Origin: an uncultured Dorea sp.
GTDB taxonomy: Bacteria; Bacillota; Clostridia; Lachnospirales; Lachnospiraceae
Assembly: GCA_947645355.1 (NCBI GenBank)
Contig: CANSCI010000002.1
Coordinates: 1-64,000 of the forward strand
Direction: 5' to 3'
Length of the DNA stretch: 64,000 nt
The notes beneath the pieces were generated by a model. That model did not search any database. It was not told the DNA's origin and worked only from the letters and a program-made list of their open reading frames with translations. A program made the translations under genes and the position numbers. This document shows positions 6,409 through 61,210 of this stretch, in pieces. How positions within the stretch are numbered: the stretch's first letter is position 1; every line of letters begins with the position of its first letter.

Positions 6409-7413
6409 CTATTCCTCTGCTTCAATTGGCTCATAATCGTCCGGCACGGTGATATTGAGCGCATCACAGATTTCCTTATTGTACATCTTGGTCACTTCCG
6501 GTGCAAACTCGATATCCATTGCCGAGATATCCGCACCGTTTGCCAGCACATCGTAAGCCATCTCCCCTGCCTTGTATCCGATGTCATAGTAACTGATAGA
6601 CAGTGTGGCAACACCGCACCCTGTACAGATTCCCTGCTCTCCTGCGATCACCGGAATCTTTGCCGGCACACATATATTCTTGATGATCTCTGTGTTGGAA
6701 GCCATAGTATTATCTGTCGGGATATAGACAGCCTCTACCTCCGAAACTGCACTTGTCACAACCGACTGAATCTCGTTGGAATCGGCAGCCGTATATTCCT
6801 TACATTCAATATTGTCCTTCTCCAGTTCCTTTTTAAACAGTTCTGCCTGATACTTGGAATTCGGCTCTGCCGAACAGTACAGGATCCCCGCCTTTTTTAC
6901 CTCTGGAAGAAGTTCTTTCAACATAGCCGCCTGTTCGTCAATCGGAGCAAGGTCACTGGTTCCGGATACATTCAGTCCGGTTGCCCCTGTCCAGTCCTCA
7001 ATCTGCAGCGCGGTCGCGTAGTCTGTGACAGATGTTCCGATAATCGGGATATCAGCCGTAGCAGTAGCCGCAGTTGTCAGCGGATCCGTCGCATTTGCCA
7101 GGATAAGATCCACATTGTCGGACACAAACTGGTTCACAATCGTTGCACACATATTATGTTCCCCCTGCGCATTCTGCTCGTCAAATGTCACATTGCCCTC
7201 GCCGCACAGTTCGGTGAGGGCATCCCTGAAGCCCTCTGTCGCCGCATCCAGTGCATCATGCTGTACAAGCTGGCAGATCCCTATCGTATAACTTTTCCCG
7301 GATTCTCCTCCCCCTTTATCCTCAGATTCTTTGCTGCCGCCTGAGCTTCCACATGCTGCAAGCGAGAGAACCAATGCAGATGCCATAATTACAGATAATA
7401 GTTTCCTTTTCAT
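6409..7413 (-). CDS. ABC transporter substrate-binding lipoprotein (TrpX-like)
   Basis: Lipobox signal MKRKLLSVIMASALVLSLAACGSS; YTIGICQLVQHDALDAATEGF; periplasmic-binding fold. Confidence 0.92.
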   Translation of the reverse strand: MKRKLLSVIMASALVLSLAACGSSGGSKESEDKGGGESGKSYTIGICQLVQHDALDAATEGFRDALTELCGEGNVTFDEQNAQGEHNMCATIVNQFVSDNVDLILANATDPLTTAATATADIPIIGTSVTDYATALQIEDWTGATGLNVSGTSDLAPIDEQAAMLKELLPEVKKAGILYCSAEPNSKYQAELFKKELEKDNIECKEYTAADSNEIQSVVTSAVSEVEAVYIPTDNTMASNTEIIKNICVPAKIPVIAGEQGICTGCGVATLSISYYDIGYKAGEMAYDVLANGADISAMDIEFAPEVTKMYNKEICDALNITVPDDYEPIEAEE

Positions 7414-7503
7414 TTTTACGTCTCCTCCTTCTGTCGTTTACTTTTTCACTTCGACGCGTGAATGTTTTACGCTTCAAAGCGTTAAAGTCAGTTAACGTAT
7501 TTG

Positions 7504-7532
7504 ATTATATTACGAACAAAAACATTCGTCAA
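7504..7532 (-). promoter_or_regulatory. Sigma-70-type promoter for the ABC transporter operon
   Basis: On - strand: TTGACG (7527-7532), 17 nt, TATAAT (7504-7509). Confidence 0.75.
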
Positions 7533-7573
7533 GACTTTTTTTGTTTTTCCATAAATTAGAAACCCAAAAGCTC

Positions 7574-7618
7574 CGGCAGGCTCTTACATGCATTGAAATA
7601 CACAAAAAGAGCCTGCCG
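7574..7618 (-). terminator. Probable terminator after the radical SAM gene
   Basis: Perfect 12-bp inverted repeat CGGCAGGCTCTT/AAGAGCCTGCCG downstream of the stop at 7650; U-tract weak. Confidence 0.5.
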
Positions 7619-7649
7619 CTAATCAACGGCAAGCCCACATATCCCTTAA

Positions 7650-8690
7650 TCAATATTCATTTCCGTAACTGAACCGTGTTCCATCTACTCCGTCGATAGA
7701 GTCCTCGGGGAGATCCCTGTAAGGAATTTCACATGTTCTGCAAGCCTTAAAGCACTCTCCCTTTGTACTCAGCATTTTCATACGCAGATCATATAATGTC
7801 CTGGATTCCCATATTTCTTTCAGGCTGTGTTCCATTACATTACCGGATCGCAGCTCCTTGAGCCAGTCAGCACAACAGGCAATAACTGTGCCGTCATTCC
7901 GGATTGTCATATGTGTGAACGGATACCTGCAGGAACGCCTTTCATTAAAAATATTTGAATTTAAGGAACCCTGGTGCTTCTGTTCCGATTCAGCGCCATA
8001 ATAATTTTCAAATACATCGTTTCCTTCACCCACATCCACATTAAAGACCTCGTCTATTCCTACTACATCTGTGATATCCTCATACATTTGCAGAAACTTC
8101 TGATTTGTCTCTTCGTCTTCGTTGAGCATTTTCGCAAATATCTTAGGAGCCTTCACGCCGGCCTTCTCCCTGCACTCATATAAGAAACGTACCTTCTCCC
8201 TGATATCCGCCGGTGTAAAATCCGACTTTGTGATGTATCTGTTCCTCTCCTCCTCAATACCATAGATGGAGAACCGAATAACATCCAGGCCGTACTCTAC
8301 CAGTTTTTCTGAAATCTCCTCTGTCAGCAGAGAACCATTGGTCGTAATCTCAATCTTCTCTGCGATCTCTCTGTCCTTCACTGCTTTCACCATATCACAC
8401 AGCCGCGGATTGACCAGCGGTTCTCCCAGAGAATATAACTTCAACAGCTTTATCTTCTCTCCGGCGCTGCGTGTCCAACTTTCCAGATCCTCCAGGACCT
8501 TTTGGAAGACCTGGTCATCCATATTTTTTAAAGGCTTTGCTTCTTCGGCAAGCTCGTTATTCCCATGATAGCACATCACACACTTAAAATTACACAAATT
8601 CGTGGGCTCAATGCTGACACACAAGGGCAATGCAAGAGGCAGGCAGTCCTTTAATATTTTTCTGTCATCCTGATACATATTCTTAAGCAT
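7650..8690 (-). CDS. Radical SAM/SPASM domain protein
   Basis: CxxxCxxC in NLCNFKCVMCYH; C-terminal Cys-rich region CCADW...CFKACRTCEIPY. Confidence 0.88.
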   Translation of the reverse strand: MLKNMYQDDRKILKDCLPLALPLCVSIEPTNLCNFKCVMCYHGNNELAEEAKPLKNMDDQVFQKVLEDLESWTRSAGEKIKLLKLYSLGEPLVNPRLCDMVKAVKDREIAEKIEITTNGSLLTEEISEKLVEYGLDVIRFSIYGIEEERNRYITKSDFTPADIREKVRFLYECREKAGVKAPKIFAKMLNEDEETNQKFLQMYEDITDVVGIDEVFNVDVGEGNDVFENYYGAESEQKHQGSLNSNIFNERRSCRYPFTHMTIRNDGTVIACCADWLKELRSGNVMEHSLKEIWESRTLYDLRMKMLSTKGECFKACRTCEIPYRDLPEDSIDGVDGTRFSYGNEY

Positions 8691-10320
8691 TTATCTTCCC
8701 TCCTACAACATCTCCGGTAAAGTAGCTTTCCGTCAATACTTCTATGCGGCGCAATACTTTTGCCGTCTGTTTCACATCTGCAAACATACTTTTTATTTCT
8801 TCATTCAGCTCATCCCATTGTTTCCCCGGATTGATTGCCGGCAAAGAAGCATCGGCATAGCTCTCGTTATATTTTGTTTTAAATCCGTCAAACCCTGCAA
8901 TTACGGCATGCTCTACCTCTAATTTATCAAGCAGCCTCAGACAGCAGATCACTGCATTGTCAAAATGCTCCCATCCTCTTTTTATTGCGCGGTTAAAGCT
9001 GACGATATATTCATTCTCTAAAGGCTTTGTCTTAATATTGGACAATACAATCTTCTTTGTCTGTCCAAACTGCTCCTGCCGTGATTCCCTGGCATAATCA
9101 TATCTCGCCGAATTAGCCGCGAACATATAATCATATCTGTATTCCCTGAGCAGTGCATTTACAGCTATAACCACCGGTTTTTCCGTCCGGATGTATTCCA
9201 GTATCTTTTCCTGCTCCTCTATCACACTTTTTCCAGGCGCCACCAGCAATACAGTCCTGCCTTTGAACGCCTTTTTTAAAAATCTGACGGTCTCTTCATC
9301 ATCTACAAGCTTATCCTGGTTCTCTATATATTTTTCCTCCAGAAGTCCGTAGTCGTATTTTCTTCTGTCCTCCGGCGACAGTGACTCAATGATATTTCTC
9401 ATATCCTTTGCACTTGTCCGGTGATTCGCCAACAGATAGGCAATGTTATTTACATGGCAGCAATACATACCCGCAATAAAGTAAGGTGTCGAATATCCCC
9501 ACTCATAATTCTCTTTAAAATATTCCATGTAAATGTCTATGGCGTCCATAACGGCATCCATATCATAGCAGCATCCATGTTGATTCAGATAATTCACAAT
9601 CAGTTCTGTCGGCGCATTTCCGGCGCCGCGACCCATTCCGTTAAGGCTTGCATCCACAATGATGCCTCTCTCCCTGTTCCGGAACATTTTCACAAAACGA
9701 ATCGTTAATGCAAAGGACAGCTGTTGATTATTATGTGAATGAAAACCGAGCCGGATTCCTTCATCCAGATTTGCATCCAGGATATCTGCGATCCTCTCCA
9801 GATCCTCCTCGTACATGGCGCCGAAGGTATCTACCACCGACAGGCTCACGGGATGTATCTGGTTGATCTCCCTGGCCAGGCTCCTAAGATCCTCGTCGCT
9901 GTAGGCCAGCGTGTTCGCCGCCTGATAAAATACCTGATACCCTTTTTCTTTGACAGCGTTCCCCACCGCGATGCCTTCTTTGTATCTGCCATGGGGAAAT
10001 ACAATCCGGACTGCATCTACCGTCTCGCCGTCACATGGCGGAAGCGCATCCAGATCATACCTGTCCCAGTCTATCATTACTGTATAGATGCTCCTCCTAT
10101 CCTTCTCCAGCAGATACGGCTTCAGGTCATCCGGGATATGATAAAAGGTCGATCCATCCCTGTGCGGATCATTTTTCAGCCACCCGCACTCAATGATGTC
10201 CACATTTGCATCCTGCATTTTCTTTAAGATACCCTTGATGGCCGGAGCCCCGAACTGAGAATCTACAATATAAGCCCCGTCCCGGAGTGTACAGTCCAGT
10301 AATTGTATCTTTTGATTCAT
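8683..10320 (-). CDS. DRE-TIM/HMGL-like aldolase (4-hydroxy-2-oxovalerate aldolase type) with extra C-terminal domain
   Basis: QLLDCTLRDGAYIVDSQFG, GFHSHNNQQLSFA, DASLNGMGRGAGNAPTE; about 200-aa C-terminal extension VLLVAPGKSVIEEQEKILEYI... Confidence 0.85.
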   Translation of the reverse strand: MNQKIQLLDCTLRDGAYIVDSQFGAPAIKGILKKMQDANVDIIECGWLKNDPHRDGSTFYHIPDDLKPYLLEKDRRSIYTVMIDWDRYDLDALPPCDGETVDAVRIVFPHGRYKEGIAVGNAVKEKGYQVFYQAANTLAYSDEDLRSLAREINQIHPVSLSVVDTFGAMYEEDLERIADILDANLDEGIRLGFHSHNNQQLSFALTIRFVKMFRNRERGIIVDASLNGMGRGAGNAPTELIVNYLNQHGCCYDMDAVMDAIDIYMEYFKENYEWGYSTPYFIAGMYCCHVNNIAYLLANHRTSAKDMRNIIESLSPEDRRKYDYGLLEEKYIENQDKLVDDEETVRFLKKAFKGRTVLLVAPGKSVIEEQEKILEYIRTEKPVVIAVNALLREYRYDYMFAANSARYDYARESRQEQFGQTKKIVLSNIKTKPLENEYIVSFNRAIKRGWEHFDNAVICCLRLLDKLEVEHAVIAGFDGFKTKYNESYADASLPAINPGKQWDELNEEIKSMFADVKQTAKVLRRIEVLTESYFTGDVVGGKINA

Positions 10321-11645
10321 CTGCTTTCCCCCTCTCTCTGCCCGTAAATGTACAGTCCTGTAAACGTTTCGTCCAATGCGGTCTGTGTCCGGACACCACT
10401 CTTATAATGGTCTAATATATAATCTCTGACTCTTGCTATTTTACGGGCTACTCCTCCGGAAAAAATAACCCTGTCGATCATGGAGATATCCTCTTCCACA
10501 ATATCTGCGGCCTGTATGAAATTCTCGCCCATCTGACAGAACACGGCGCGCATCAGGTTTCCCAATGTCAGAGAATATTCCTCAATATGAGAAATACTCC
10601 CCTGCCGGAAATCTGTCGCGGCATTTTCGTAAAAGCTAAGGTCACAGGACAGGCCTGTCTCTTCTGCCTGCTGCTCCGCCTCAAGCAATATCCTCCAGAT
10701 ATCCTCCTCCGGCACATCTGCCTGAAACCGGCACAAAATATCCCTCAGAAATCGAATATAAACATTCAATGCCCTCCCCGAAGGAAGATATGGAATTGTC
10801 TTTAGATAGGCCTCGCCAAAATACGGCCTTATCTGATATTGATCTGAAAATACAACCTCCGATACCATCTTACTGACCTGCGCCCCTGTCCCAAGATTGA
10901 AAGAAATCGTTCTTTCATCCGTAAGCCCTGCTCCAAGCAGAGCCGCCTGTTGGTCTCCAATTGCCGGAAGCGCATTCACTTTTAAGGAACCTAAGAAAAA
11001 GGTAATCTGCCTCTCTCCAATCTGCGGGAATCGGATCCCCGCCCCTCCTGCCGCCTTTATCAGCCTGTGGTTCCATATATGACTGCGCAGATCATACAGG
11101 CCTGTAGCCGCTGCATTGGTCGGATGGCATATCGGCTCCTTCCCGGACACTGCCCTTAGAATATAATCTCCCAGTGTATAAAAATGCAATTGCGGATGCA
11201 CATTGTCCAGACAGCCGATTCGCTGCAGATACAGCAGGTTGCTGCTTGGAAGCCCGGCCCGAAGCGGCATCCCTGTATATCGGATATCCCCTGCCAGGTC
11301 TCTTCGCCTTAATTCATCTACAGAAGTATATCCTTCTATTTCCTTTGCACTGTATTCCTTCTGCCAGGATATATAATCCGTGTAAGGCTTTCCGTCTTCA
11401 CAGGCAAGCAGAAATCCGTGCATTTCATTAGAAATACACAGTCTTACCTCTGCCTCACTCCCGGCCAGGTCCAGAATCATCTGAGACACCAGAGGCACCA
11501 GCGCCCGGACCTGGACCGGGTTTCTTATATCCTCTTCCCCATGCACCCTGGGAGCCCGAAGCTGCATCCGCTTCTCTATTTTTCCGTTTTGGATCCGTGC
11601 ACCTTTTAAAAAGCTGGCACCGCAATCAATGGTTATCGTGTTCAT
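10317..11645 (-). CDS. FGGY-family carbohydrate kinase (sedoheptulokinase-like)
   Basis: ITIDCGASFLKGA N-terminus, AIGDQQAALLGAGL, FSGGVARK; start placed at internal ATG (11645). Confidence 0.8.
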   Translation of the reverse strand: MNTITIDCGASFLKGARIQNGKIEKRMQLRAPRVHGEEDIRNPVQVRALVPLVSQMILDLAGSEAEVRLCISNEMHGFLLACEDGKPYTDYISWQKEYSAKEIEGYTSVDELRRRDLAGDIRYTGMPLRAGLPSSNLLYLQRIGCLDNVHPQLHFYTLGDYILRAVSGKEPICHPTNAAATGLYDLRSHIWNHRLIKAAGGAGIRFPQIGERQITFFLGSLKVNALPAIGDQQAALLGAGLTDERTISFNLGTGAQVSKMVSEVVFSDQYQIRPYFGEAYLKTIPYLPSGRALNVYIRFLRDILCRFQADVPEEDIWRILLEAEQQAEETGLSCDLSFYENAATDFRQGSISHIEEYSLTLGNLMRAVFCQMGENFIQAADIVEEDISMIDRVIFSGGVARKIARVRDYILDHYKSGVRTQTALDETFTGLYIYGQREGESR

Positions 11646-12690
11646 TTGTTTCCTCAATATATGCTAAAAACATATCTTCCAATGTCTGGTCAATCTTCAT
11701 AGGGTATACAATCAGATGGCCGACAGAATCCGGCATAGCGAAATTCAGCACATCTCCCCTCACCTTTTTATCCGTGCGGATGATCTCAAATAATGCCCTG
11801 GGATCTTGAACTTCTATCCTCTCCTTCAGGAATGCACGCCAGATCAAATCGTGGACATCCTCATAGATCTCCCGTGAGATCAAGCCCTCTCTCCAGGCAA
11901 TATAATTCACCACATCAATTCCCCAGATCACTCCTTTGCCGTGGGGAATCTCATTCTTCGTATAGCTTTCCAGCGCGTGGCCGAACGTGTGCCCGTAATT
12001 CAGCACCCGCCTTAAATCAGATTCAAATTCATCTTTCTCAATGATCCTCTTTTTCACCATCAGCCCTTTGTGTATATACCCGGCAATCCGCTTACAGGGG
12101 ATATAGTCTGTCTCAGCTTTTACCTCCTGATAAAAGGCTTCGTCATCTGTCAGAGAGAATTTAAGAAGTTCGCCCCATCCATTGATATAATCATCCTCTG
12201 AGAGCGTCTTAAGAAACCCTGCATCAATAAAAATTTTCCTGGGAGGATAGAACACACCGATCTGGTTCTTGTATGCACCCAGATTGATGCCGCACTTTCC
12301 CCCGATGCAGGAGTCACACATAGACAGCAGCGTTGTTGGAAAAAAATACCACTCTATGTTGCGGAGAAACAGATTGCTTGCAATCGTTGTCACATCCTGA
12401 GTGATCCCTCCCCCGATGCATACTGCCTTCCATTCCTTCCTGACTCCCAGCCTCTGCCAGAAGGAGATCAGATCCAGAACTGTCTCCATATTTTTCTGAT
12501 GCTCCGCCGCCTCTACAAAATAGATCTTCTCCGGCTCCACAGACTGGAACGCATCCCGGTACAGATCATATACTCTTTTATCTGCCACATAGGCAGCGGC
12601 CGGACCGAAGCTCTGCAGCTTTTCTCTGAAATTGTCAATAATATCTACTGTATAATCATATAGTCTCGAGCTGATATGAATTGTCTCCAT
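11626..12690 (-). CDS. 3-dehydroquinate synthase-family protein (AroB-like; candidate sugar-phosphate cyclase)
   Basis: IGGGITQDVTTIASNLFLRNIEWYFFPTTLLSMCDSCIGGKCGINLG; NYGHTFGHALE; IPHGKGVIWG. Confidence 0.82.
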   Translation of the reverse strand: METIHISSRLYDYTVDIIDNFREKLQSFGPAAAYVADKRVYDLYRDAFQSVEPEKIYFVEAAEHQKNMETVLDLISFWQRLGVRKEWKAVCIGGGITQDVTTIASNLFLRNIEWYFFPTTLLSMCDSCIGGKCGINLGAYKNQIGVFYPPRKIFIDAGFLKTLSEDDYINGWGELLKFSLTDDEAFYQEVKAETDYIPCKRIAGYIHKGLMVKKRIIEKDEFESDLRRVLNYGHTFGHALESYTKNEIPHGKGVIWGIDVVNYIAWREGLISREIYEDVHDLIWRAFLKERIEVQDPRALFEIIRTDKKVRGDVLNFAMPDSVGHLIVYPMKIDQTLEDMFLAYIEETNEHDNH

Positions 12691-12728
12691 AATTTGTCCC
12701 TCTCATGTATCAACATTTATATGCTTAT

Positions 12729-13700
12729 CTATTCCGGGATACACAGATCCCTGATCATCTCCCCGTGTACCTCGGGGCAAAGGAAGAAATAGTTGGTCTC
12801 TATTGTTTCTTCGTCCACATAGCCAAACCGCTTTAACTTATTGTCTCCTGTGATCACATAGCACTGGTATCCGATCTTCTCAAACAACTGAATAATGTCA
12901 TTGGGATGATAGTTGTACTTGGCAGACCACTTCCGCAGTATCTCTGAAAAAACTACAGGCTTGTATTTCTCAATACTTTTCAGCCCTCCTTCATACACAA
13001 ACAATTCAGAGCCTTCCACATCACACTTAATAAAATCAATCCGCCCAAGCTTTTCTTCTTCAACAAATTCATCCAGACGCCTGATCTGACACTCCACCTT
13101 CTCTGTAGTTCCTGCTTCCCTCAGATCCACCATGGATGATGCGCCTGAAACCTGCAGATCATAAAAAAAAGTAATGGTCTTATTCTCGTTTGACAGGCCA
13201 AGGTTTAAGCATCTGCAATTTTCCAGACCATTAAGCTCTATATTTCTTTTTAATTTCTCATAAGTTTGAGGGATAGGCTCAAATGCATAGGAAGTCAACG
13301 CCGGGTACTGCTTACATACATTTAGTGTATACCAGCCCAGATTCGCCCCGATGTCCAGGCACACCCCCTTCTCCTCCCCGAAATAACTAAATAAGGTATT
13401 TACCATCCTCAGCTCCTCCGGCTCATATCCGTCCGCCGTACTTAGCATGGCCGCCGGAACTGCTCCCCAGTCATCCTGGTAGAGGGCCATATGAATCTTA
13501 TACGGTTCACCCTTCGCATTTTGATTATCCATGGTAAAAACCACATCATCTCCTGTAACCGCAACCTGACAGACATGAGAATCGTTGAGCAGATCTTTAT
13601 ATTCCAGCAGCTCCTCAAACTTTTTGAACAATTTCATCCGGTACTCTTTCACATCCGTCTGTCCGTTTTTATATTCATTTCTGATCTCAGTAATCGTCAT
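12729..13700 (-). CDS. FkbM-family methyltransferase
   Basis: GVCLDIGANLGWYTLNVCKQYP, FIKCDVEGSELFVYEGG. Confidence 0.85.
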   Translation of the reverse strand: MTITEIRNEYKNGQTDVKEYRMKLFKKFEELLEYKDLLNDSHVCQVAVTGDDVVFTMDNQNAKGEPYKIHMALYQDDWGAVPAAMLSTADGYEPEELRMVNTLFSYFGEEKGVCLDIGANLGWYTLNVCKQYPALTSYAFEPIPQTYEKLKRNIELNGLENCRCLNLGLSNENKTITFFYDLQVSGASSMVDLREAGTTEKVECQIRRLDEFVEEEKLGRIDFIKCDVEGSELFVYEGGLKSIEKYKPVVFSEILRKWSAKYNYHPNDIIQLFEKIGYQCYVITGDNKLKRFGYVDEETIETNYFFLCPEVHGEMIRDLCIPE

Positions 13701-13712
13701 CTCTTTTCTCCT

Positions 13713-14792
13713 CTACACAGCAATCGTTTCTCTTTCCTGCAGCAGGCTCTCTATGGTCCGATAGAATCCCTCCCGCGTATCATACTTACAGACCCATCCA
13801 AGTGACTTTAACTTCTCGTCACTGATCTTTCCCTCACTTTCTTCCTTCTTCGGAACTTCGCTATTCCCCTCCGGTATCTTCATCTCCACTTTCAGTTTCT
13901 TTTCGGGATACAGGCCGGTCAACAGATCTGCAAGCTGGCGGATGCTGAGATACTCCCCGGAATTGCAGAGATTATAGGCCTCCCCGGCGCTTCCGTCCAG
14001 TAATATCTGAAAAAAAGCAGCAGCAGCGTCCGCAAGGTAGCAGAATGGTCTCATTGCCGAACCGTCACTTTTCATAACAATATTTCGGTTATTAATAATG
14101 TCGCCGGCAAAGGATGAAAACACTCTGGCATCACCGTCAATGTCCATCGTCGGCCCGTAGGTATGGCAGATCCTCGCAATCTTTACAGGTACCTTCTTCT
14201 GATGAAACCAGGCGCAGCACAGCATTTCCGCCATCCTTTTGCTCTCACAATAGCAATTTCTCAGATTCAGCGTATCGGCAGTCCCCAGTGTCTCCTCTGT
14301 AATTACCGAGACAGAACGGTCTACTTTCCCATAGACTTCACCGCTGCTGAACAACAGGAATCCTTCTGCCTTATGCTCCTCTGAAAGCTTAAGAAGCGAA
14401 ATAGTACCGGATATATTCGGCAATATCACATCAACCGGCATACTGCCGTAATATTGCGTGCTTGCCAGGCTGGCGCCGTGGATCACATAATCTATATGTC
14501 CCTCCACAAAGATCGGTTCGTTGATATCTTTCAGATAAAGTTCTATATATTCCTTTTCCAAAAAACGGCCGAACCGTCTTCTGGCTTTCTCTTCACTGCG
14601 GACAGCCAGGATCAGCCTGATATTGTAATGATGCATCTCATTCAGATAAATACACAAGAACACAAGATAGGAGGTAAGCATCCCATATGCACCTGTGATA
14701 AAAATTGTCTTGTCTCTCAATCTTTCCCAATTGATATTACGTTCATAGATCTCTTCCAGATCTTCCCTTATCACACGATTTTCCCAGAACAT
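13713..14792 (-). CDS. NAD-dependent epimerase/dehydratase (extended SDR)
   Basis: TIFITGAYGMLTSYLV; VIHGASLAS; SGEVYGK; YCESKRMAE (YxxxK). Confidence 0.85.
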   Translation of the reverse strand: MFWENRVIREDLEEIYERNINWERLRDKTIFITGAYGMLTSYLVFLCIYLNEMHHYNIRLILAVRSEEKARRRFGRFLEKEYIELYLKDINEPIFVEGHIDYVIHGASLASTQYYGSMPVDVILPNISGTISLLKLSEEHKAEGFLLFSSGEVYGKVDRSVSVITEETLGTADTLNLRNCYCESKRMAEMLCCAWFHQKKVPVKIARICHTYGPTMDIDGDARVFSSFAGDIINNRNIVMKSDGSAMRPFCYLADAAAAFFQILLDGSAGEAYNLCNSGEYLSIRQLADLLTGLYPEKKLKVEMKIPEGNSEVPKKEESEGKISDEKLKSLGWVCKYDTREGFYRTIESLLQERETIAV

Positions 14793-14805
14793 TCCTCTGC
14801 CTCAC

Positions 14806-16644
14806 CTATTCTTCTTTGACACATTCTATGATCATATTTTCCCGCAGCTCTTCCCTGGAAAGAAAGGGCGCCATATCCTCAAGAGGCGGAGACACCATCC
14901 TGCCGTCCTCCAGTTTTCTGGCGGCAGATTTCGGCTCAAACGCCTGTCCTTTGGTGACAACCACTTCACAGAAAGCCGATCCTTCCGCCTGCAGAACCGT
15001 ATCTATGATATCCTCCATCTCCTCGCTGCGGCTGCACCGGTAAAAAGGAAAACCATAGACAGAGGCAAGCCCCTCGCAGGACGGGAAGCCCAGATCCCCG
15101 CTCTCCTCTCCTACGCCTACAAATCCATTGCCGAATATATTTTTCTGTGTCAGCCTGATCTGCTGATATCCTCTGTTGTTGATCACAAAAAGCTTCACCG
15201 GCAGCTGATTCGTACGGATTGTCTGAAGCTCCTGCAGATTCATCTGCAGACTTCCGTCTCCTGCAATACAGACAGTCTCCCGGCCTCCTAAAGCCACACA
15301 TGCGCCGATTGCCGCCGGCAGGTCATACCCCATAGAAGACAGAGCGCAGTTCATAAGAAACCTCTGCCCCCTGCGGATATAGTATGCCTGACTCCCCACC
15401 ACGCTGGCCGAGCCGTTGGCCACAACAGTAACGGCACCCGAACGCAGCTTTCTGCTGAGACAGTCCATAAAAGCATATACATTCACATGCTCCTGCTCCG
15501 AACAATAGTGTTCTTTACAGACGACCGGATACCTCTTTTTCCATGCAGTACAAGTCTTAAGCCACTTTGTACCTCTTTGGGCAGTTCCTGTACAGGCTCC
15601 TTTTTTTACGGCCTCAGACATTTTGTCAATCACACTTCCTACATCTGCACAAACAGCTTTATCTACCCGGATGGTAGGCTTCTTCAACTCTTCCGGATCT
15701 ATGTCCACCGCAATACAATAACTCTCCCGGGCCCAGGTACGTATATCATACCCCACCTGATAGATGTTCAGGCGGGATCCCAGGGACAAGACAAGATCAC
15801 TGTTCTGAACCGCAAAATTCCCGGCTCTGTCTCCCATAAGTCCGCCCCGTCCCACATAACAGGGTGCATCTGTCTCCATCTCATCAATGCTGTTCCAGCA
15901 GGTTACCACCGGAATATCTAATAACTGTACCAGCTCTGCAAACTTTTTATAGCTCCCGGAGGTTCGAATCGCGCTTCCGGCATAGATAACCGGACGTTCT
16001 GCACCTCTGATCTTTTCCATAATAAATGCGATATCCTCATCAGCTGCCTCATACTGCATCTGATAACCTTCGCTGCAAGGATCAAACCCCTGCAGGGAAT
16101 CCACATCTATCATTTTCCCCTGGATATCCACCGGAATGTCCAGCCAGCATGGCCCCGGTCTTCCATGAAGTGCCAGAAACAGTGCTTTTTCCAGCGTATA
16201 TCTTATGTCTTGCGCGTCTTCGAGCATAACACTGTATTTTGTAATATGCTCTACCATCGGAATAATGTCAATCTCCTGATTCCCCAGTGTGCGCAGACGA
16301 AGGCCAGAGTGCCTGACTGTCAGCTCTGTCTTTGTCTGCCCGGAAATTACCAGCATAGGAATCGAGTCCACCCACGCCCCTGCCACTCCGGTGACGGCAT
16401 TGGTGGCTCCCGGCCCCGAAGTAACACAGACCGCCGCCATCCTGTTATCTACCCGGTAATAGGCCTCCGCCGCAATAGACGCCGCCTGCTCATGATGATT
16501 GTAGATACACTTAATCCTGTCCGAATGGCCGAATGCATCATTTAAATGCATAGCTCCGCCCCCGACTACTGTAAAGACATGAGCGATCCCATTTTCTGCC
16601 AAAAATCCCTCTATAAAATCTGCGACTCTCATTTTTGTACTCAT
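14806..16644 (-). CDS. Thiamine-pyrophosphate-binding enzyme (acetolactate synthase/IlvB-like)
   Basis: MRVADFIEGFLAENGIAHVFTVVGGGAMHLNDA; VTSGPGATNAVTGVAGAWVDSIPMLVISGQ; ThDP motif GDGSLQMNLQELQTIRTNQLPVKLFVINN; start placed at internal ATG (16644). Confidence 0.88.
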   Translation of the reverse strand: MSTKMRVADFIEGFLAENGIAHVFTVVGGGAMHLNDAFGHSDRIKCIYNHHEQAASIAAEAYYRVDNRMAAVCVTSGPGATNAVTGVAGAWVDSIPMLVISGQTKTELTVRHSGLRLRTLGNQEIDIIPMVEHITKYSVMLEDAQDIRYTLEKALFLALHGRPGPCWLDIPVDIQGKMIDVDSLQGFDPCSEGYQMQYEAADEDIAFIMEKIRGAERPVIYAGSAIRTSGSYKKFAELVQLLDIPVVTCWNSIDEMETDAPCYVGRGGLMGDRAGNFAVQNSDLVLSLGSRLNIYQVGYDIRTWARESYCIAVDIDPEELKKPTIRVDKAVCADVGSVIDKMSEAVKKGACTGTAQRGTKWLKTCTAWKKRYPVVCKEHYCSEQEHVNVYAFMDCLSRKLRSGAVTVVANGSASVVGSQAYYIRRGQRFLMNCALSSMGYDLPAAIGACVALGGRETVCIAGDGSLQMNLQELQTIRTNQLPVKLFVINNRGYQQIRLTQKNIFGNGFVGVGEESGDLGFPSCEGLASVYGFPFYRCSRSEEMEDIIDTVLQAEGSAFCEVVVTKGQAFEPKSAARKLEDGRMVSPPLEDMAPFLSREELRENMIIECVKEE

Positions 16645-16654
16645 TTTCTTACCC

Positions 16655-18196
16655 TTAACCTCCCAGATAGACGACAGGCACATCTTCTGTCCCGTATATC
16701 CACTTAATCTCTATACCGCTCTCCTCATACTGCTCCACATTATGATACAAAACATCTGACAGCATATAGTGGGTAAGGATGATTACATCCGGGTTGATCT
16801 CCCCGATCCGTTCGGGACCCGATACCTCTGCCGCAATCCTTTCGCCTATCTCCATATTCCCCCACAGCTTTTCATTCCTGTCTATGATATAGCTCTGAAA
16901 CTCAGGTTCTCCAAACCAATCCTGATAATCCTTCAAAAACTTTCTGGTCGTTGCACAGTTTGGATAAAAGACGACCTTTCGGTATTTTGCAGCCTTGATC
17001 TCTTCCAGTTTCTCTTTCCACCGGCCCTTTTCTGTCACTCTGCCGGATATCCTCTCATAAACATCCCGGATCCTGTCCACAATAGGCAGCGACTGGGTAC
17101 ATTTCCTCTCGCAGCTTCGGCAGGAAATGCACGGATTCTCTCCTTCCAGAGGGAACTCCACCCCATAATGCATCATTTCCTGTGTCAGGCGTATATTATC
17201 CAGCAGACTTTTGTCATCCCGCCGATACTGGCCTGCATATCTGCTGTTATCCCATTGCAGCACATTATAACTATACATCAGACTCTTGACGGGAATCCCG
17301 CGCGGGCAGCCTTTACAGTAATCACAGCCTGTACACAGCCCATTTTTCTGGTACAATTCCTTCTCGAAATAATCGGTATACTCCGGCCGGTACTCCTCCA
17401 TCTGTTCAATTGCCCTTATGTTGCACTTCATCTCCTCCAATGTCTGCATACCGGACAAGACACTAGTCACTGCCGGCTGAGAGTAGATATACTGGAGCGC
17501 CATCTGACAGATCTCGTCTGTATTCTCTGTGAGTTTCTGAAACAACTGCGGATTCTGAGGAAGCAATCCTCCCGCCAGAGAATTCATAGTCAAAATACCG
17601 GCTCCCAACTTGCGCGCCTTCTCCAATACAGGGCGCATCTGCACACAATTCAGCAAATGATATGTAATCGTGTAGCCCTCAAACTTTTCCTCCTCCATAA
17701 TCTGCATCGTCTCCTCTACGGTTGCGTGAGAAGACAGGCAGATATGGCGGATCAGCCCCTCCTTCTTAGCCTCCAGAAATCCTTCATAAATACCTCCGGG
17801 CTTCATGATCTCCTGATACTCCTCATAGGATTTCACAGCCTGGGCAAAACAAAGATCCGCAGTTTGTATATTCAGGGCGCGCAGCTGCTCTCTGATATCC
17901 TGGACGGCGCCCTGCTTCGTTCTGTCCGTATGGTTCAGCATCATTTTAACAGAGACATAAACCTCTTTCCTGCCCCCAATCTCCTCCAGTGCCCTCTTAA
18001 GGATCGGGAATGCCTTCTTATTCGAATAATTCCTGGCAACATCTATGTAATTGACACCCCTGTCCACTGCATAGGTCACCATCCTGACCGCCTGCTGCAT
18101 CCCTTCTTCCGTCAGCATCTCCGGCGGAAACCGGTTCATTCCGAATCCAAGTCCTGACAGCCAGAGATCTGTCTTTCCAAATCTGCGATATTCCAT
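16655..18196 (-). CDS. Aldo/keto reductase with Cys-rich ferredoxin-like region and an extra C-terminal domain
   Basis: MEYRRFGKTDLWLSGLGFGMNRFP; Cys clusters CTGCDYCKGCPRG and CISCRSCERKC; 110-aa tail KVVFYPNCATTRKFLKDY... Confidence 0.85.
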   Translation of the reverse strand: MEYRRFGKTDLWLSGLGFGMNRFPPEMLTEEGMQQAVRMVTYAVDRGVNYIDVARNYSNKKAFPILKRALEEIGGRKEVYVSVKMMLNHTDRTKQGAVQDIREQLRALNIQTADLCFAQAVKSYEEYQEIMKPGGIYEGFLEAKKEGLIRHICLSSHATVEETMQIMEEEKFEGYTITYHLLNCVQMRPVLEKARKLGAGILTMNSLAGGLLPQNPQLFQKLTENTDEICQMALQYIYSQPAVTSVLSGMQTLEEMKCNIRAIEQMEEYRPEYTDYFEKELYQKNGLCTGCDYCKGCPRGIPVKSLMYSYNVLQWDNSRYAGQYRRDDKSLLDNIRLTQEMMHYGVEFPLEGENPCISCRSCERKCTQSLPIVDRIRDVYERISGRVTEKGRWKEKLEEIKAAKYRKVVFYPNCATTRKFLKDYQDWFGEPEFQSYIIDRNEKLWGNMEIGERIAAEVSGPERIGEINPDVIILTHYMLSDVLYHNVEQYEESGIEIKWIYGTEDVPVVYLGG

Positions 18197-18208
18197 ACTC
18201 GAATCTCC

Positions 18209-18661
18209 TTATGTATTTTCGATCAATTCCAGATAATTTCCTTCTATATCCCGGCAGAAGGCCATATAATTCCCATTCTCCTGCACTTGCATCGGATCAC
18301 AGACCGGCTGTCCGCCGTGCTCCTGCACATTCCGGTACACATCGTGGATATGTGCCACCCCAAGCCCGATATGAGCCATTCCGGGTGCAAACAGGGCGCC
18401 GTCCACACATTTCTCCTCATTATCAGGAACACAGACCAGCTCCAGCATATCTCCCTGCCCCTTTTCCTTCCCAAAAGGCGTCAGCAGTTTACAGATCAGC
18501 ACTTTGGCGCCCTTCCTTTTCAAGATCCTGCCGATGTGATCTCCAGAATCCTCATAGCGCGTCAGTTCCAGAAATCCCAGAGCCTCCTTGTAAAAGTCTA
18601 TCATTCCCTGAAAATCTCTGACATAAATACCGACATGCTTCATGTATTTTATCTTTTCCAT
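18209..18661 (-). CDS. VOC-family (glyoxalase/bleomycin resistance-like) protein
   Basis: KYMKHVGIYVRDFQGMIDFYKEALGFLELTR... HIGLGV...NYLELIENT. Confidence 0.85.
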   Translation of the reverse strand: MEKIKYMKHVGIYVRDFQGMIDFYKEALGFLELTRYEDSGDHIGRILKRKGAKVLICKLLTPFGKEKGQGDMLELVCVPDNEEKCVDGALFAPGMAHIGLGVAHIHDVYRNVQEHGGQPVCDPMQVQENGNYMAFCRDIEGNYLELIENT

Positions 18662-18705
18662 CTATCGCCCTCACCGAAATATTTTCTTCAATATTTTCCT
18701 TTTTT

Positions 18706-18735
18706 AGTATACCCTTCAACCTCCTGAATTGTCAA
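18706..18735 (-). promoter_or_regulatory. Sigma-70-type promoter for the nine-gene operon 18661 to 7650
   Basis: On - strand: TTGACA (18730-18735), 18 nt, TATACT (18706-18711), upstream of the VOC gene. Confidence 0.65.
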
Positions 18736-18835
18736 CAATCAGGGGCGAAGTCAAAGCCGCCGACGCGAATGTTTATATACATCCGCATCTGCGGCTCTTC
18801 ATCCTTTGCAGCGCAATATTCTGATTATATGTACA

Positions 18836-21412
18836 TTAGCAGGTCGCTCCGCCGACAACCGTCTTTTCCAGTATTTTACTCTTGTCGATCCTGCTGTTCA
18901 GAAGTTTATCCTGTGCATATTCAAATCCCAGACGTGCGATCGTATCCGCAAAACGTTCCCCTGAGATCCCCTCGTCACGGAAGAAAAGTATCGCACGCTC
19001 CACAAGCTCCACAACTTCCTCCTCCGAGGTAAAGATCTTATCAAGCGGGCGGCCCTCCGCCACCTTCTTGCCCCATCTTCCGCCGATATATACCTTATAC
19101 CCGACAGCTGCCTCACCCAGCGCGCCGAACGGGCAGCTGGATATACAGCGTCCGCAATGATTGCAGGTATCCTCCGGGATCCTGATCTTACCGTCCTCCA
19201 TCTGAGCCACATGGATCGGGCACGCCTTCTCCACCTGGCATACTTTACACCCGCGGCATTTTGACAAGTCAATCTCAGGCAGACGCTGGCCGATGATCCC
19301 AAGGTCGTTAAGATCCGGTTTTACACAGTTATTCGGACATCCGCCCACCGCAATCTTGAATTTGTGAGGAAGCGATACTCCATGATATCCTGTATAGAAT
19401 AGATCATGCAGGCGCTCCGACAGAGAAAAAGTATCAATCAGCCCATACTGGCAGGTTGTCCCCTTGCAGGACACCACGGGCCGCACCTTCGACCCGGTTC
19501 CTCCGGTCTCGAGACCTGCCTCCTCCAGAAATGCCCTGAGCGGCTCGATATTGTCATACAAAACTCCCTGGATCTCCAGCGTAAGTCTGGTCGTCATTGT
19601 AACTTCCCCGGATCCGAACTTCTCGGCTGCCTTGGCAATCTTTTTCTGCTCTTCGGCCGTGATCTTTCCGTTCCGCGTGATGACACGTACATTGAATACA
19701 TCATCATATCTCTTATCCTGAAGACATCCGAGCCCTTTCACTCTCTTAATCTCTTCTGCCGAAAGCTTCTTCCCGTCACGGGGCACACGAACCTCGTTGA
19801 ACATTGCGCCGCCCTCCAATACAAGGGTATTGGTGTATCCGAAGGCTTTCAGGCGGTTCTGGAGGAAATAGCCCCTCTTTCCTTTCGCACAGACAAGCAG
19901 AAGCCTTGCATCCTTCTCAATTCCTTCTAACGGCCCGTCCACCGTCGTCAGATCGATCCAGCGCGCATTTTGAAGCGCCGGAGCCGGCTGTACATCCAGT
20001 ACTGTATAGCCTTTGGCCGCCCCGGCCGCATACTCTGCCGGGCTCATGCTCTCCAGAACTTTATCCAGCTTATTTTCCAGAATATAGCAGGCTGTCACAA
20101 ACGGGTGGATGGCCGTCGAAAACGGCGGCGCATACGCAAAGTCCATAGTGTCGAAATCATCTATTTTCATTCCCTGGGAGATTCCGGCAACTGCAATATC
20201 CACTATCTTATCTACCGCGCCTGCCCCCAGCACCTGAATGCCGAGAAGTCTGCGGCTCTCTCTGTCTGCCGTCAGCTTCATAATAAATGACGACGCTCCC
20301 GGATAGTAGTGCGCCTTGTCATCCAGAATGCAGACAACAGATACCGCATCGTATCCTGCTGCCTTCGCCTGCATCTCTGTAAGCCCTGTCCTGCCCCCGT
20401 TCAAAGTCGGCAGAATCCGCACAACCCCTGTGCCGAGGCATCCGCCGTAGCCTCTTCCCTGTCCGTAAAGCCCCTTCGCCAGAGCCCTCGCCGCAAGATT
20501 GGCCGTGGAACCCATTGCCGACCACTGCATGGCTCCTGTAACTGCATGTTTCACGACAGCACAGTCCCCCACCGCATAAATATCCGGAAGATTGGTCTCA
20601 AGCTTCTCATTTACTATAATGGTACCTTTCATCATCTCAATCCCAGAATCCGCCAGGAATCCCGTACACGGGCGAACCCCGATGGCCAGGATCACCACGT
20701 CTGCCAAAAGGCTGCCATTGTCCGTCGCCACACTCTCTGCACGCTGATCCCCCAAGATACCTGCAAGGCTTGTGGACGTAAGCACGCGCATCCCTGCCGC
20801 CTTAATCTGACGCTTTGCATAGGATGCCATCTCCTCGTCAAATGCATTGGGCATGATCTGGGGCGCCGCATCGATCACCGTCACATGCAGCCCCTGTGCC
20901 ATCAGGTTCTCTGCTACCTCCAGGCCGATAAACCCGGCTCCGCACACCACTGCTTTTCTGCAATTCTCCTTCTCTATGTACGCCCGGACCGCCACGGCGT
21001 CGTCCGGCGTGCGGACACAGAACACCCCCGGAAGCTTTGTACCTTCTACCGGCGGCACGAACGGCTCTGCGCCCGTGGCAATGATAAGTTTGTCATACGT
21101 TTCTGTGAAGGTCTCTCCGCCAATACGACAAAATGTCACCTGCCGGTTCTTTTCGTCCACCCCCGTTGCCTCACAGCCTGTAAATACCTCGGCCCCTGTA
21201 AGCCCTGCGTATTTGGCAGGGAAATTTACAATCAATTCTTCTCTTGTACCGATATCTCCCCCGATATAATACGGAAGTCCGCAGCCGGCATATGAGATGT
21301 CCGTGCCCTTGGTAAAGACTTTTACCTGCGCGTTCCGGTCACACCTTTTGAGTTTCGCCGCGGCTTTTGTCCCCGCAGCAACACCCCCTAAAACCACATA
21401 TTTCATTTTCAT
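18836..21412 (-). CDS. FAD-dependent pyridine-nucleotide disulfide oxidoreductase / rhodanese / nitrite-sulfite reductase / ferredoxin fusion
   Basis: MKMKYVVLGGVAAGTKAAAKLKR...YAGCGLPYYIGG (CoA-disulfide-reductase-like); LLLVCAKGKRG (rhodanese loop); CKGTTCQYG...GGCPNNC (siroheme/4Fe-4S); CRGCKVCQVEKACP and CNHCGRCISSCPF (4Fe-4S). Start placed at 21412 with RBS GGGAGGG. Confidence 0.88.
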   Translation of the reverse strand: MKMKYVVLGGVAAGTKAAAKLKRCDRNAQVKVFTKGTDISYAGCGLPYYIGGDIGTREELIVNFPAKYAGLTGAEVFTGCEATGVDEKNRQVTFCRIGGETFTETYDKLIIATGAEPFVPPVEGTKLPGVFCVRTPDDAVAVRAYIEKENCRKAVVCGAGFIGLEVAENLMAQGLHVTVIDAAPQIMPNAFDEEMASYAKRQIKAAGMRVLTSTSLAGILGDQRAESVATDNGSLLADVVILAIGVRPCTGFLADSGIEMMKGTIIVNEKLETNLPDIYAVGDCAVVKHAVTGAMQWSAMGSTANLAARALAKGLYGQGRGYGGCLGTGVVRILPTLNGGRTGLTEMQAKAAGYDAVSVVCILDDKAHYYPGASSFIMKLTADRESRRLLGIQVLGAGAVDKIVDIAVAGISQGMKIDDFDTMDFAYAPPFSTAIHPFVTACYILENKLDKVLESMSPAEYAAGAAKGYTVLDVQPAPALQNARWIDLTTVDGPLEGIEKDARLLLVCAKGKRGYFLQNRLKAFGYTNTLVLEGGAMFNEVRVPRDGKKLSAEEIKRVKGLGCLQDKRYDDVFNVRVITRNGKITAEEQKKIAKAAEKFGSGEVTMTTRLTLEIQGVLYDNIEPLRAFLEEAGLETGGTGSKVRPVVSCKGTTCQYGLIDTFSLSERLHDLFYTGYHGVSLPHKFKIAVGGCPNNCVKPDLNDLGIIGQRLPEIDLSKCRGCKVCQVEKACPIHVAQMEDGKIRIPEDTCNHCGRCISSCPFGALGEAAVGYKVYIGGRWGKKVAEGRPLDKIFTSEEEVVELVERAILFFRDEGISGERFADTIARLGFEYAQDKLLNSRIDKSKILEKTVVGGATC

Positions 21413-21503
21413 TTCCCTCCCTGTATTTTCATTTTTCATCTGAGATCTGCTTATTTGACTTTTCATAGACACCGTAAGTCCGATAATGGAATCATTTCTA
21501 TAA

Positions 21504-21532
21504 ATTATACAGGTTGTCCTTCCATTCGTCAA
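21504..21532 (-). promoter_or_regulatory. Sigma-70-type promoter for the oxidoreductase fusion gene
   Basis: On - strand: TTGACG (21527-21532), 17 nt, TATAAT (21504-21509). Confidence 0.72.
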
Positions 21533-21574
21533 CAAATGAACAAATCCTCTATACAGGTATTTATCTGACTTCTG

Positions 21575-41010: not shown

Positions 41011-41724
41011 CTACTTCATACCTTCCATCTTTTTCGCCTCCAGCAGCGCCTCAAAAATCTCCAGGTCATCGATGGAAGTCAGCTTAATATTTTTTTCAGA
41101 ACCCAGAGAAAAATACAGACGATACCCTAACTCCGTAAAGAGCGTACAGGTAGACACTGAATTGGTGATCCCTTTCTTCTGTGCATCCTCATGAGCCTTC
41201 AAAAGCGTCCCTACGGAAGCACACTGGGGTGTTTGGGTAACCTTCAGGTTATCTCTGGATATCTGTCCGGATGAGGTGATCCCGTCTTCTGTACACAGCA
41301 TGGCCGTGTTGCACGGCACAACCGACACTGCGTTGCCGAATTGTGCGGCCACCCGGATACAATCCGAGATGATCTCCTCCGACACCAGCGGACGGATCGC
41401 GTCATGCACCAGTATCAGATCCTCCTTCTCATGGCGGGATGCGATATCCTGCACACCCTTTCGGATCGACTCCTGCCCATTGCCTCCACCCGGCACGATC
41501 TTTTCCAGTTTGGTAATGTCATACTGTCTGCAATAGGCATTTAAGATCTTCTCCCAGCCCTCTACGCATACCACAACAATCCCATCAATACAAGGATGTT
41601 TCTGAAAAGCTTCCATCGTATACAGGATCACCGGTTTGTCCTGTACATTTAAAAACTGCTTCGGAATGTCCTGTCCCATCCGCTGCCCGTAGCCGCCTGC
41701 AATAATTAAAGCAATATTCTGCAT
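41011..41724 (-). CDS. IspD/TarI-family cytidylyltransferase
   Basis: ALIIAGGYGQRMGQDIPKQFLNVQDKPVILYTMEAFQKHP; LVHDAIRPLVSEEII. Confidence 0.9.
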   Translation of the reverse strand: MQNIALIIAGGYGQRMGQDIPKQFLNVQDKPVILYTMEAFQKHPCIDGIVVVCVEGWEKILNAYCRQYDITKLEKIVPGGGNGQESIRKGVQDIASRHEKEDLILVHDAIRPLVSEEIISDCIRVAAQFGNAVSVVPCNTAMLCTEDGITSSGQISRDNLKVTQTPQCASVGTLLKAHEDAQKKGITNSVSTCTLFTELGYRLYFSLGSEKNIKLTSIDDLEIFEALLEAKKMEGMK

Positions 41725-41737
41725 GAATCATACCTCA

Positions 41738-42430
41738 CTACTTCATATGATATAATGCCTTGAACATCTCCACATCCTCAACGGCATTGATCTTAATATT
41801 TAGATCCGATCCCCTGGAAAAGTACACAGTCTCCCCCAGTCTGGCGATCATACTGTTATTGTCCATGCAGTAAAGCACTCCTTTTTCCAGAGCCTCCGCA
41901 TGCATTTTTTTCAAATATCCCAGGCGGTACGACTGAGGCGTCTGGATCCGCCGGACCTTTTGTTTGACAATACTTTCCTTTCCGCTGAGCCCGTCATCAC
42001 TGAGCATGATCGTGTCCACTGAGCGCACAGCTGCCACTCCCATGCCCTTTTTCCTGCAGGTGCAGATACTGTCTGTGATCAGATCCTCCGTCACCAGGGG
42101 ACGGATCGCGTCATGCACGACGATCACATCATCCGGCTCTCCGTTCTGCGCCAGCCATTCCACACCCCGGCGGCTGGATTCCTGACCGTCCGGACCGCCT
42201 TCCACGATGGCCGACAGCTTTGTTATATTAAACTGCTTCGCATAGGCCCGCACCATCTCCTGCCAGCCAGGCAGACAGGAGACAACGATCTCGTCGATCT
42301 CCGGGTGTCTCTGAAAGGCCTGTAGTGTATATACAATCACCGGACGATTATCTACAATCACAAACTGTTTTGGAATATCCATCTGAAAACCCGGGTCAAG
42401 CCCTGCGGCCAGTATTAGTCCTTTGTTCAT
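41738..42430 (-). CDS. IspD/TarI-family protein with degenerate nucleotide-binding motif
   Basis: GLILAAGLDPGFQMDIPKQFVIVDNRPVIVYTLQAFQRHP; VVHDAIRPLVTEDLI. Confidence 0.85.
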   Translation of the reverse strand: MNKGLILAAGLDPGFQMDIPKQFVIVDNRPVIVYTLQAFQRHPEIDEIVVSCLPGWQEMVRAYAKQFNITKLSAIVEGGPDGQESSRRGVEWLAQNGEPDDVIVVHDAIRPLVTEDLITDSICTCRKKGMGVAAVRSVDTIMLSDDGLSGKESIVKQKVRRIQTPQSYRLGYLKKMHAEALEKGVLYCMDNNSMIARLGETVYFSRGSDLNIKINAVEDVEMFKALYHMK

Positions 42431-42460
42431 ATATTATCATTTCCTCTCTATTTCTACATT

Positions 42461-42489
42461 ATTATATTTCGATTGACTGCAGATTGCAA
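42461..42489 (-). promoter_or_regulatory. Possible internal promoter before the tandem IspD-like genes
   Basis: On - strand: TTGCAA (42484-42489), 17 nt, TATAAT (42461-42466). Confidence 0.5.
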
Positions 42490-42511
42490 GCAGTCTGCAA
42501 TCCTTGCAGCT

Positions 42512-43657
42512 TCACGATTCATACAGATCCATCAGTTTCCCGCAGGATGCCTCAATATGATACCCGGTCTGCCAAAAGCTTCTGTCTATCCTGCCTTGGC
42601 CGTCTTCTTTCCTGGCCCTGGCCGTTCTATCCGCCTCTACGTCTGCTTTCTTAAGCGCTTCTGTCCAGATCCTCTCTTTAAGAGGCAGGAACTTCACCAG
42701 GCCGGTGATATCTGTCTCCTCCGTCACAGAATCTGATACCAGGCACCTAAGGCCGACAGCCTGAGCCTCTATCACAGAGATCGGAAGCCCTTCAAATATA
42801 GAGGGAAGGCAGAACACATCCATTGCCTGCAGCAAGTCCGGAATATCCTCCCGCCAGTCATAACACATCACATGTTCCTGCATTCCCAGCTCACCGACAA
42901 GCTTTCTCACTTCCGATATCTTTTCTCCCTGCCCGATCAGGATCAGATATAACCTTTGATCCTTTTCATGTGCTGTGGCAAAACACCTAACCAGAAATTC
43001 CTGATTCTTCTGATAGCTATACCTCCCTACATTGCCGACCACGATCCGATCCTTGATTCCAAGCCGGCCGCGGATCACTTCCCTCATCTCCCGACTATAA
43101 CGAAACCGCCGTGTATCTATAGCATTGGGAAGGATACGGATCCGATCCCTTGGAATATCCGGGGAAAAGAGCCAGTCTGCCGCCACCCGGGAACAGGCGC
43201 ACAGATCCGTCGCGTATTCCATAGAAAACCGGGCTTTGTAATCCATATGGTCTCTCCATAGCTTCTCCCGTTCTGCCGGATCTACAAAATCAAGCCCCGA
43301 ATTATGGGAATGGACAATGACCTTCGGAACCTTCATCTGCATCGCGATCTCTTCTATTAAGAATCCGCGCCAGGCACTTGTATGCAGATGGAGCACATCG
43401 AAGCCCTCCTCCAGAATACTCCTGATCTCCCTTGCAAATGCTTCTCTTCCATCTCTCTGGACACTATTCAGCTGATACACCGGGAACCTAAAACTCTCAT
43501 ATTCCTTAGTTGCCCTGAGACTGTCCGCCGATCTCGTTAGAAATGAAAACTCATACTTGGACTGATCAATATACGGTATATGGTTGAAAATATAGCGGTA
43601 TACACCGTTATGAATCTCCGGCGGCGTCATATGTAATATTTTCATCATATGCTGCAC
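42512..43657 (-). CDS. Glycosyltransferase family 1/4
   Basis: VGNVGRYSYQKNQEFLVRCFATAHEKDQRLYLILIGQGE; CLPSIFEGLPISVIEAQAVGLRCLVSDSV. Confidence 0.92.
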   Translation of the reverse strand: MQHMMKILHMTPPEIHNGVYRYIFNHIPYIDQSKYEFSFLTRSADSLRATKEYESFRFPVYQLNSVQRDGREAFAREIRSILEEGFDVLHLHTSAWRGFLIEEIAMQMKVPKVIVHSHNSGLDFVDPAEREKLWRDHMDYKARFSMEYATDLCACSRVAADWLFSPDIPRDRIRILPNAIDTRRFRYSREMREVIRGRLGIKDRIVVGNVGRYSYQKNQEFLVRCFATAHEKDQRLYLILIGQGEKISEVRKLVGELGMQEHVMCYDWREDIPDLLQAMDVFCLPSIFEGLPISVIEAQAVGLRCLVSDSVTEETDITGLVKFLPLKERIWTEALKKADVEADRTARARKEDGQGRIDRSFWQTGYHIEASCGKLMDLYES

Positions 43658-43732
43658 CTCCTACTTTCTTTTTTATCACGGCCTCCGCAGGCGACGGATC
43701 CTTCAGATCATAGAGCCTCCGATCTCTCCGGC

Positions 43733-46289: not shown

Positions 46290-46375
46290 CCCGCCCTATC
46301 TCCTCTCTTCAAAGCCTTCGCACTCCGTACTGCCCGATCCTCTCCGCATCCCATACTGCCTGGCCGCACTCCGCA

Positions 46376-61205: not shown

Positions 61206-61210
61206 CCACT

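Follow-up and report, generated by a model that had tools for sequence, protein, structure and literature searches.

The window analysed here, a 64,000-nucleotide stretch from an uncultured Dorea sp. of the Lachnospiraceae (contig CANSCI010000002.1), carries on its minus strand a nine-gene operon (7650-18661) that we would best describe, with a probability of about 0.5, as the source of a C-branched deoxysugar like those of the YerE, ErwE and caryophyllose pathways, destined for a surface glycan and most likely for one on flagellin. This figure is offered for the statement as a whole and is not the product of the figures of its parts. The description draws on the recurrence of the same gene families in other genomes, the likeness of the encoded thiamine diphosphate (ThDP) enzyme to JanthE and YerE, the mutual exclusivity of the partners of an AroB-like protein that has kept its dehydroquinate synthase (DHQS) active site, and the position of RfbF and RfbH genes beside flagellin in the same genome.

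A recurrent nine-gene operon

The nine open reading frames, with the coordinates and strand that the earlier note had assigned to them, are all co-directional, and are separated by gaps of 12, 13, 12 and 38 nt or overlap by 4, 8 and 29-32 nt. The reading frames, families and promoter described in that note were borne out, and a terminator was found besides. In order of transcription, the parts are:

18706..18735, minus strand: sigma-70-like promoter, TTGACA-18-TATACT, with 11/12 consensus matches and an 18-nt spacer; joint top score within 7000-19200
18209..18661, minus strand: VOC (glyoxalase-fold) protein, 150 aa, by family match; also in sister cassettes; possible epimerase/isomerase
16655..18196, minus strand: aldo/keto reductase (AKR) with a 4Fe-4S domain, 513 aa, by family match
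14806..16683, minus strand: ThDP enzyme, IlvB-like, by family match; closest in the structure database to JanthE (8rph)
13713..14792, minus strand: extended short-chain dehydrogenase/reductase (SDR; NAD epimerase/dehydratase family), by family match
12729..13700, minus strand: FkbM-family methyltransferase, by family match; O-methylation proposed
11626..12690, minus strand: AroB-like sugar phosphate phospholyase (TIGR04425 relative), by model scores, tree, residue conservation and fold
10317..11657, minus strand: divergent FGGY-family sugar kinase, by FGGY_N match; listed start TTG, with an ATG start about 4 codons downstream
8683..10320, minus strand: DRE-TIM (HMGL-like) pyruvate aldolase with an extra C-terminal domain of about 220 aa, by family match
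7650..8690, minus strand: radical SAM/SPASM protein, by family match; 74% identity to the copy in a flagellin-linked cassette (L106)
7609..7636, minus strand: intrinsic terminator with a 12-bp stem and T tail, immediately 3' of the last stop codon

In a domain search the kinase matched FGGY_N at 35.5 bits (cut-off 28.8) and had no FGGY_C match, and a fold search with the C-terminal domain of the aldolase returned weak matches alone (SteA, an MptE-type pyrophosphokinase and a sialyltransferase).

A single-protein query with the AroB-like protein against GTDB contigs gave no matches; a search of 84,980 genomes by fragment alignment succeeded and yielded 80 loci, distributed among Bacillota, Pseudomonadota, Elusimicrobia, Spirochaetota, Actinomycetota and one archaeon. 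Eight of the nine window families occur together in Anaerovibrio sp. RM50 (locus L046, the same as L037), and near-complete sets are found in L049, L054, L059 and L106. Since the same families recur together in these five loci, the nine-gene grouping is far from chance. The Fe-S AKR is peculiar to the window cassette, being carried by none of the loci of the 80 relatives. The earlier note could match the gene combination to no recognised pathway, and we likewise found no described pathway holding the whole of it, although it is a recurrent cassette.

The loci share ancestry, some of them (L110/L111) being almost identical, so that co-occurrence statistics are inflated by kinship; with this in mind, the genes beside the AroB-like gene in the clustered locus set include a classical SDR (hereafter SDR2) in 73 loci, a JanthE-like ThDP enzyme in 63, and RfbF, RfbG and RfbH in 40-41 each. 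Among the 62 ThDP loci, 59 have SDR2 and 47 have RfbF/G/H genes. Three unrelated enzymes that form 2-keto-3-deoxy acids, namely, the DRE-TIM fusion, a NeuB-family synthase and an HpcH/HpaI-family aldolase, fill one slot in these cassettes: exactly one of them is present in 56 of the 62 ThDP loci and two in none, the other six loci lying on short or edge-cut contigs, and on the AroB-like tree the synthase type has switched no fewer than 9 times. In L054 (8147-10843), the DRE-TIM aldolase and the AroB-like protein are a single in-frame protein of 898 aa. We considered the extended SDR of the window as a replacement for RfbG and rejected this, as SDR and RfbG co-occur in L046, L110, L111 and L113. 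A plasmid search for AroB-like/HpcH cassettes led to two candidates that were discarded, the Ilyobacter one being unrelated catabolism and the Novosphingobium one HpcH alone with RfbF/RfbG.

Proposed branched-sugar chemistry and probable destination of the product

Compared with solved structures, the ThDP enzyme of the window is closest to JanthE (8rph, E 1e-124), the runner-up being an acetolactate synthase (E 3e-71). YerE-like ThDP enzymes add branches to CDP-4-keto-3,6-dideoxyhexoses, and ErwE prefers 4-hydroxy-2-oxo acids (PMC12247030), the kind of acid that pyruvate aldolases are expected to yield. Caryophyllose is 3,6-dideoxy-4-C-(D-altro-1,3,4,5-tetrahydroxyhexyl)-D-xylo-hexose (PMC5706390), the side chain of which is exactly a 3,7-dideoxy-hept-2-ulosonate minus CO2. 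The source genome, a metagenome-assembled genome of 2.84 Mb and 88% completeness, encodes RfbF (372 bits, cut-off 300) and RfbH (706 bits, cut-off 423). Of the two products that the earlier note had proposed, a carbocycle or a branched sugar, the second fits both the JanthE/YerE-like enzyme and these genes, and we consider a branched-sugar route distinctly probable from the gene content; the more general claim, that the operon makes a sugar-like precursor for a glycan, is supported as well.

The CDP-C-branched deoxysugar pathways of Yersinia, Pectobacterium and Mycobacterium marinum (YerE, ErwE and caryophyllose, respectively; PMC12247030, PMC5706390) share with the window a YerE/JanthE-like ThDP enzyme, genes for CDP-3,6-dideoxyhexose formation in the locus or elsewhere in the genome (here RfbF and RfbH), and ketoreductases, with 4-hydroxy-2-oxo acid donors in the case of ErwE. 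The window differs in having, for the supply of the donor, an AroB-like phospholyase, an FGGY kinase and an aldolase/synthase dedicated to it, which we did not find described there. The publications consulted on the M. marinum lipooligosaccharide locus mention no AroB-like gene in it, and a survey of Actinomycetota for a mycobacterial (caryophyllose) AroB-like gene returned an Eggerthellaceae case only.

On another contig of the source genome (C11), a flagellin gene, two genes for glycosyltransferase-like proteins, RfbF2, RfbH, RfbF and a radical SAM gene lie inside the flagellar gene cluster, and the sister cassettes L106 and L099 are located directly downstream of flagellin genes, the radical SAM protein and ThDP enzyme of L106 being 74% and 61% identical to those of the window. 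Since RfbF and RfbH adjoin flagellin, and L106 and L099 follow flagellin genes, a flagellin glycan is the likelier target when set against the wall-glycan locus at 37-64 kb of the window; taken by itself, we give the flagellin target an even chance. Besides flagellin, the island on C11 (L140 11580-19901, L151) encodes a TPR-containing SunS-like glycosyltransferase, RfbF in two copies, RfbH and a radical SAM protein.

The earlier note had looked to that neighbouring locus, of RgpF/TarF/phosphonate type, as the user of the product, and a branched sugar made for this surface glycan instead of flagellin is the best-surviving alternative. The locus shares the contig with the operon, at a distance of about 19 kb, but housekeeping genes (glutamate synthase, carbamoyl-phosphate synthase and glutamine synthetase) lie between, and both the acceptor-making RfbF/RfbH and the two sister cassettes stand next to flagellin genes, which renders this destination doubtful and, in our judgement, unlikely. 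Within the locus, a phosphoenolpyruvate phosphomutase fused to a cytidylyltransferase-like domain lies beside a two-domain thiamine pyrophosphate decarboxylase-like gene (60051-62943, minus strand), making up a phosphonate (phosphonopyruvate) module, and three IspD-family cytidylyltransferases occur with TarF-like and RgpF proteins (41011-47092, minus strand).

The AroB-like protein and its proposed reaction

The AroB-like protein matches TIGR04425 ('AroB-related putative sugar phosphate phospholyase') over the whole model at 318 bits, below the 400-bit cut-off, and scores 241 bits with the AroB equivalog model TIGR01357, below its 305-bit cut-off. In a tree of 79 AroB-like proteins (the window and 78 relatives) and 27 true AroB sequences, the latter drawn from related Bacillota, one branch with SH-aLRT support of 100 parts the two groups. 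The window protein clusters, apart from AroB, with TIGR04425 members above the cut-off (L035, 432 bits; L067, 407; L109, 456), and scores in sister loci are as high as 432-467 bits; proteins of the window type form a subclade near TIGR04425, share its gene partners, and have their closest named relatives in Lachnospiraceae. On model score and tree, the protein is not AroB and belongs to a separate clade. We know of no TIGR04425 member with an assigned function, and found no mention of the family by name in the papers searched.

All 80 AroB-like proteins have kept D126, K132, N142, E174, K213, R227, N231, H234, H238, H250 and K308/K309, and 77 of the 80 have kept K177, residues that we take, from DHQS structures, to serve the Zn, phosphate and carboxylate sites, the last including a Lys/Arg/Asn/Lys set. 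At position 128 the Ser of DHQS is replaced by Cys, the invariance of which is biased, as the loci were found partly by means of Cys128. An AlphaFold model (pLDDT 93) has DHQS structures as its best matches, before DOIS and EEVS. From the kept residues and the model fold, a carboxylate and a phosphate are both most likely present in the substrate, in a geometry like that of 3-deoxy-D-arabino-heptulosonate 7-phosphate. EEVS, DOIS and DDGS, which stand outside our alignment, lack the carboxylate-binding residues of DHQS; a cyclitol pathway of the EEVS/DOIS type is therefore disfavoured, the carboxylate site being kept in 80 of 80 proteins. The AroB kinship claimed for this protein holds in fold and in the Zn/NAD/phosphate/carboxylate-site residues, whereas an identity with ordinary DHQS does not, given the sub-cut-off score, the separate clade, the Ser to Cys change, the operon partners and the second AroB that carrier genomes usually have.

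The AroB-like/SDR2 pair serves two kinds of loci. Some of those without a ThDP enzyme resemble CMP-ulosonate (Kdo/NeuAc-type) pathways, combining the pair with 2-keto-3-deoxy acid synthases (NeuB, HpaI) and KdsB/NeuA, whereas the window operon has the ThDP enzyme where they have KdsB/NeuA. A CMP-ulosonate transferase (NeuA-type) is present in 8 of the 18 loci lacking the ThDP enzyme and in 0 of the 62 having it (Fisher p 1.5e-6, kinship ignored). For instance, L070 has an HpaI aldolase, KdsB (178.6 bits, cut-off 155.2), SDR2 and the AroB-like gene in a row, L045 combines SDR2, AroB-like, FGGY and DRE-TIM genes with NeuA, and L070, L078, L145 and L150 have an aldolase with the AroB-like/SDR2 pair alongside KdsB/NeuA. 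The TIGR04425 model also retrieved eight loci from Spirochaetota, which were kept outside the model-building set as a test. Four of them (L144, L146, L147 and L148) have the ThDP enzyme with one synthase each (DRE, HpcH, HpcH and NeuB, respectively) and Rfb genes, in two (L145 and L150) an aldolase is paired with KdsB/NeuA, L143 contains KdsB and no recognised synthase, and L149 is degenerate; none of the eight joins a ThDP enzyme with a CMP transferase. In L066, L074 and L143 the pair is accompanied by a phosphoheptose-isomerase-like gene and a CMP transferase, several of these loci having no recognised aldolase, and a 2-hydroxyacid-dehydrogenase-like gene is found in L066, L074, L097 and L145.

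Neither use of the product, as a ThDP donor or as a CMP-ulosonate, is possible unless the 2-keto acid is intact, and an AroB-like enzyme supplying either would thus be expected to spare the C2 ketone from ring closure. A step that removes the phosphate without forming a carbocycle is what these gene sets suggest, and we favour it tentatively, at somewhat less than an even chance. The pathway would then run as follows, all of its reactions and the chain length being predicted from gene families. The DRE-TIM aldolase would join pyruvate to a short aldose, giving a 2-keto-3-deoxy sugar acid, the far end of which the FGGY kinase would phosphorylate, setting the phosphate that the AroB-like enzyme removes; in loci without the kinase the aldehyde would already be phosphorylated. 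Through NAD oxidation, phosphate elimination, reduction and protonation, the AroB-like enzyme would produce a terminal methyl ketone, closing no ring and sparing the 2-keto acid. This ketone would be reduced by SDR2 in the relatives and here probably by the Fe-S AKR, a C7 chain yielding 3,7-dideoxy-hept-2-ulosonate. The JanthE/YerE-like enzyme would decarboxylate the acid and transfer the acyl unit to CDP-3,6-dideoxy-4-keto-glucose, the product of RfbF/G/H, after which the extended SDR may reduce the branched ketone in a YerF-like role and the VOC, FkbM and radical SAM proteins may trim and methylate the sugar.

More generally, and with less assurance than for the step itself, TIGR04425-type relatives of AroB may be non-cyclising phospholyases that act by DHQ-synthase chemistry on a 7-phospho-2-keto-3-deoxy sugar acid to give a terminal-deoxy ulosonic acid, which is then either CMP-activated or used as a YerE-like acyl donor for caryophyllose-like sugars on flagellin and other surface glycans. 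If so, a branch of the DHQ-synthase superfamily would gain a concrete, testable reaction, AroB relatives would be tied to both CMP-ulosonate and CDP-branched-sugar routes, an origin would be proposed for the long side chains found in caryophyllose and other branched sugars, and an unusual flagellin sugar would be predicted in gut and rumen bacteria.

Several points weigh against this reading. The ring-closing step of DHQ synthase is largely spontaneous, so that its suppression calls for an unproven feature, and we know of no AroB-family enzyme that stops short of ring closure. On the AroB-like tree, the mutual exclusion of ThDP enzyme and NeuA reduces to 2-3 independent pairs, all in the expected direction and not significant. 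The window operon has no SDR2, unlike 59 of the 62 ThDP loci; as it alone has the Fe-S AKR, that enzyme may do the reduction, a substitution that is a guess. RfbG was not found in the 88% complete assembly, and the operon itself lies away from flagellar genes.

A rival reading takes up the carbocyclic option of the earlier note: the AroB-like enzyme would close the ring to a dehydroquinate-like carbocyclic acid (a DHQ isomer), the SDR/AKR would reduce it, the ThDP enzyme would use plain pyruvate for a yersiniose-like sugar or to branch the cyclic ketone, and the product would be a quinate-like glycan unit. All DHQS catalytic residues are kept, the model fold is closest to DHQS, the curators' name for TIGR04425 says 'cyclizing', and JanthE accepts bulky cyclic ketones (PMC12247030). 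However, ring closure would cost the product its 2-keto acid, leaving no cassette substrate for the ThDP enzyme in a donor role or for NeuA/KdsB in L045, L070, L078, L145 and L150, and the strict one-per-locus aldolase/synthase slot beside the ThDP enzyme would go without explanation. As the AroB-like/reductase pair feeds one or other of these two consumers, we hold ring closure to be improbable, slightly more so than the wall-glycan destination.

Very improbable is the view that the AroB-like gene is the ordinary DHQS of the organism, drafted into an otherwise loosely related sugar operon. In the assembly, which has aroC, it is literally the sole DHQ_synthase-family gene, with no second AroB found at 88% completeness, a circumstance that the earlier note had named as telling against its own reading. 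However, besides the score and clade given above, a separate AroB above the model cut-off is present in 19 of 28 cassette-carrying genomes (in G776, 400 bits for the true AroB against 251 for the AroB-like protein), and since aroF and aroB, adjacent in the genus-mate G001, are both missing here, an assembly gap is likely; we thus rejected the gene as the only DHQS of its genome.

At 18836-21535 on the minus strand, the window encodes an 899-aa protein in which a CoA-disulfide-reductase-like flavoprotein is fused to nitrite/sulfite reductase and 4Fe-4S domains.

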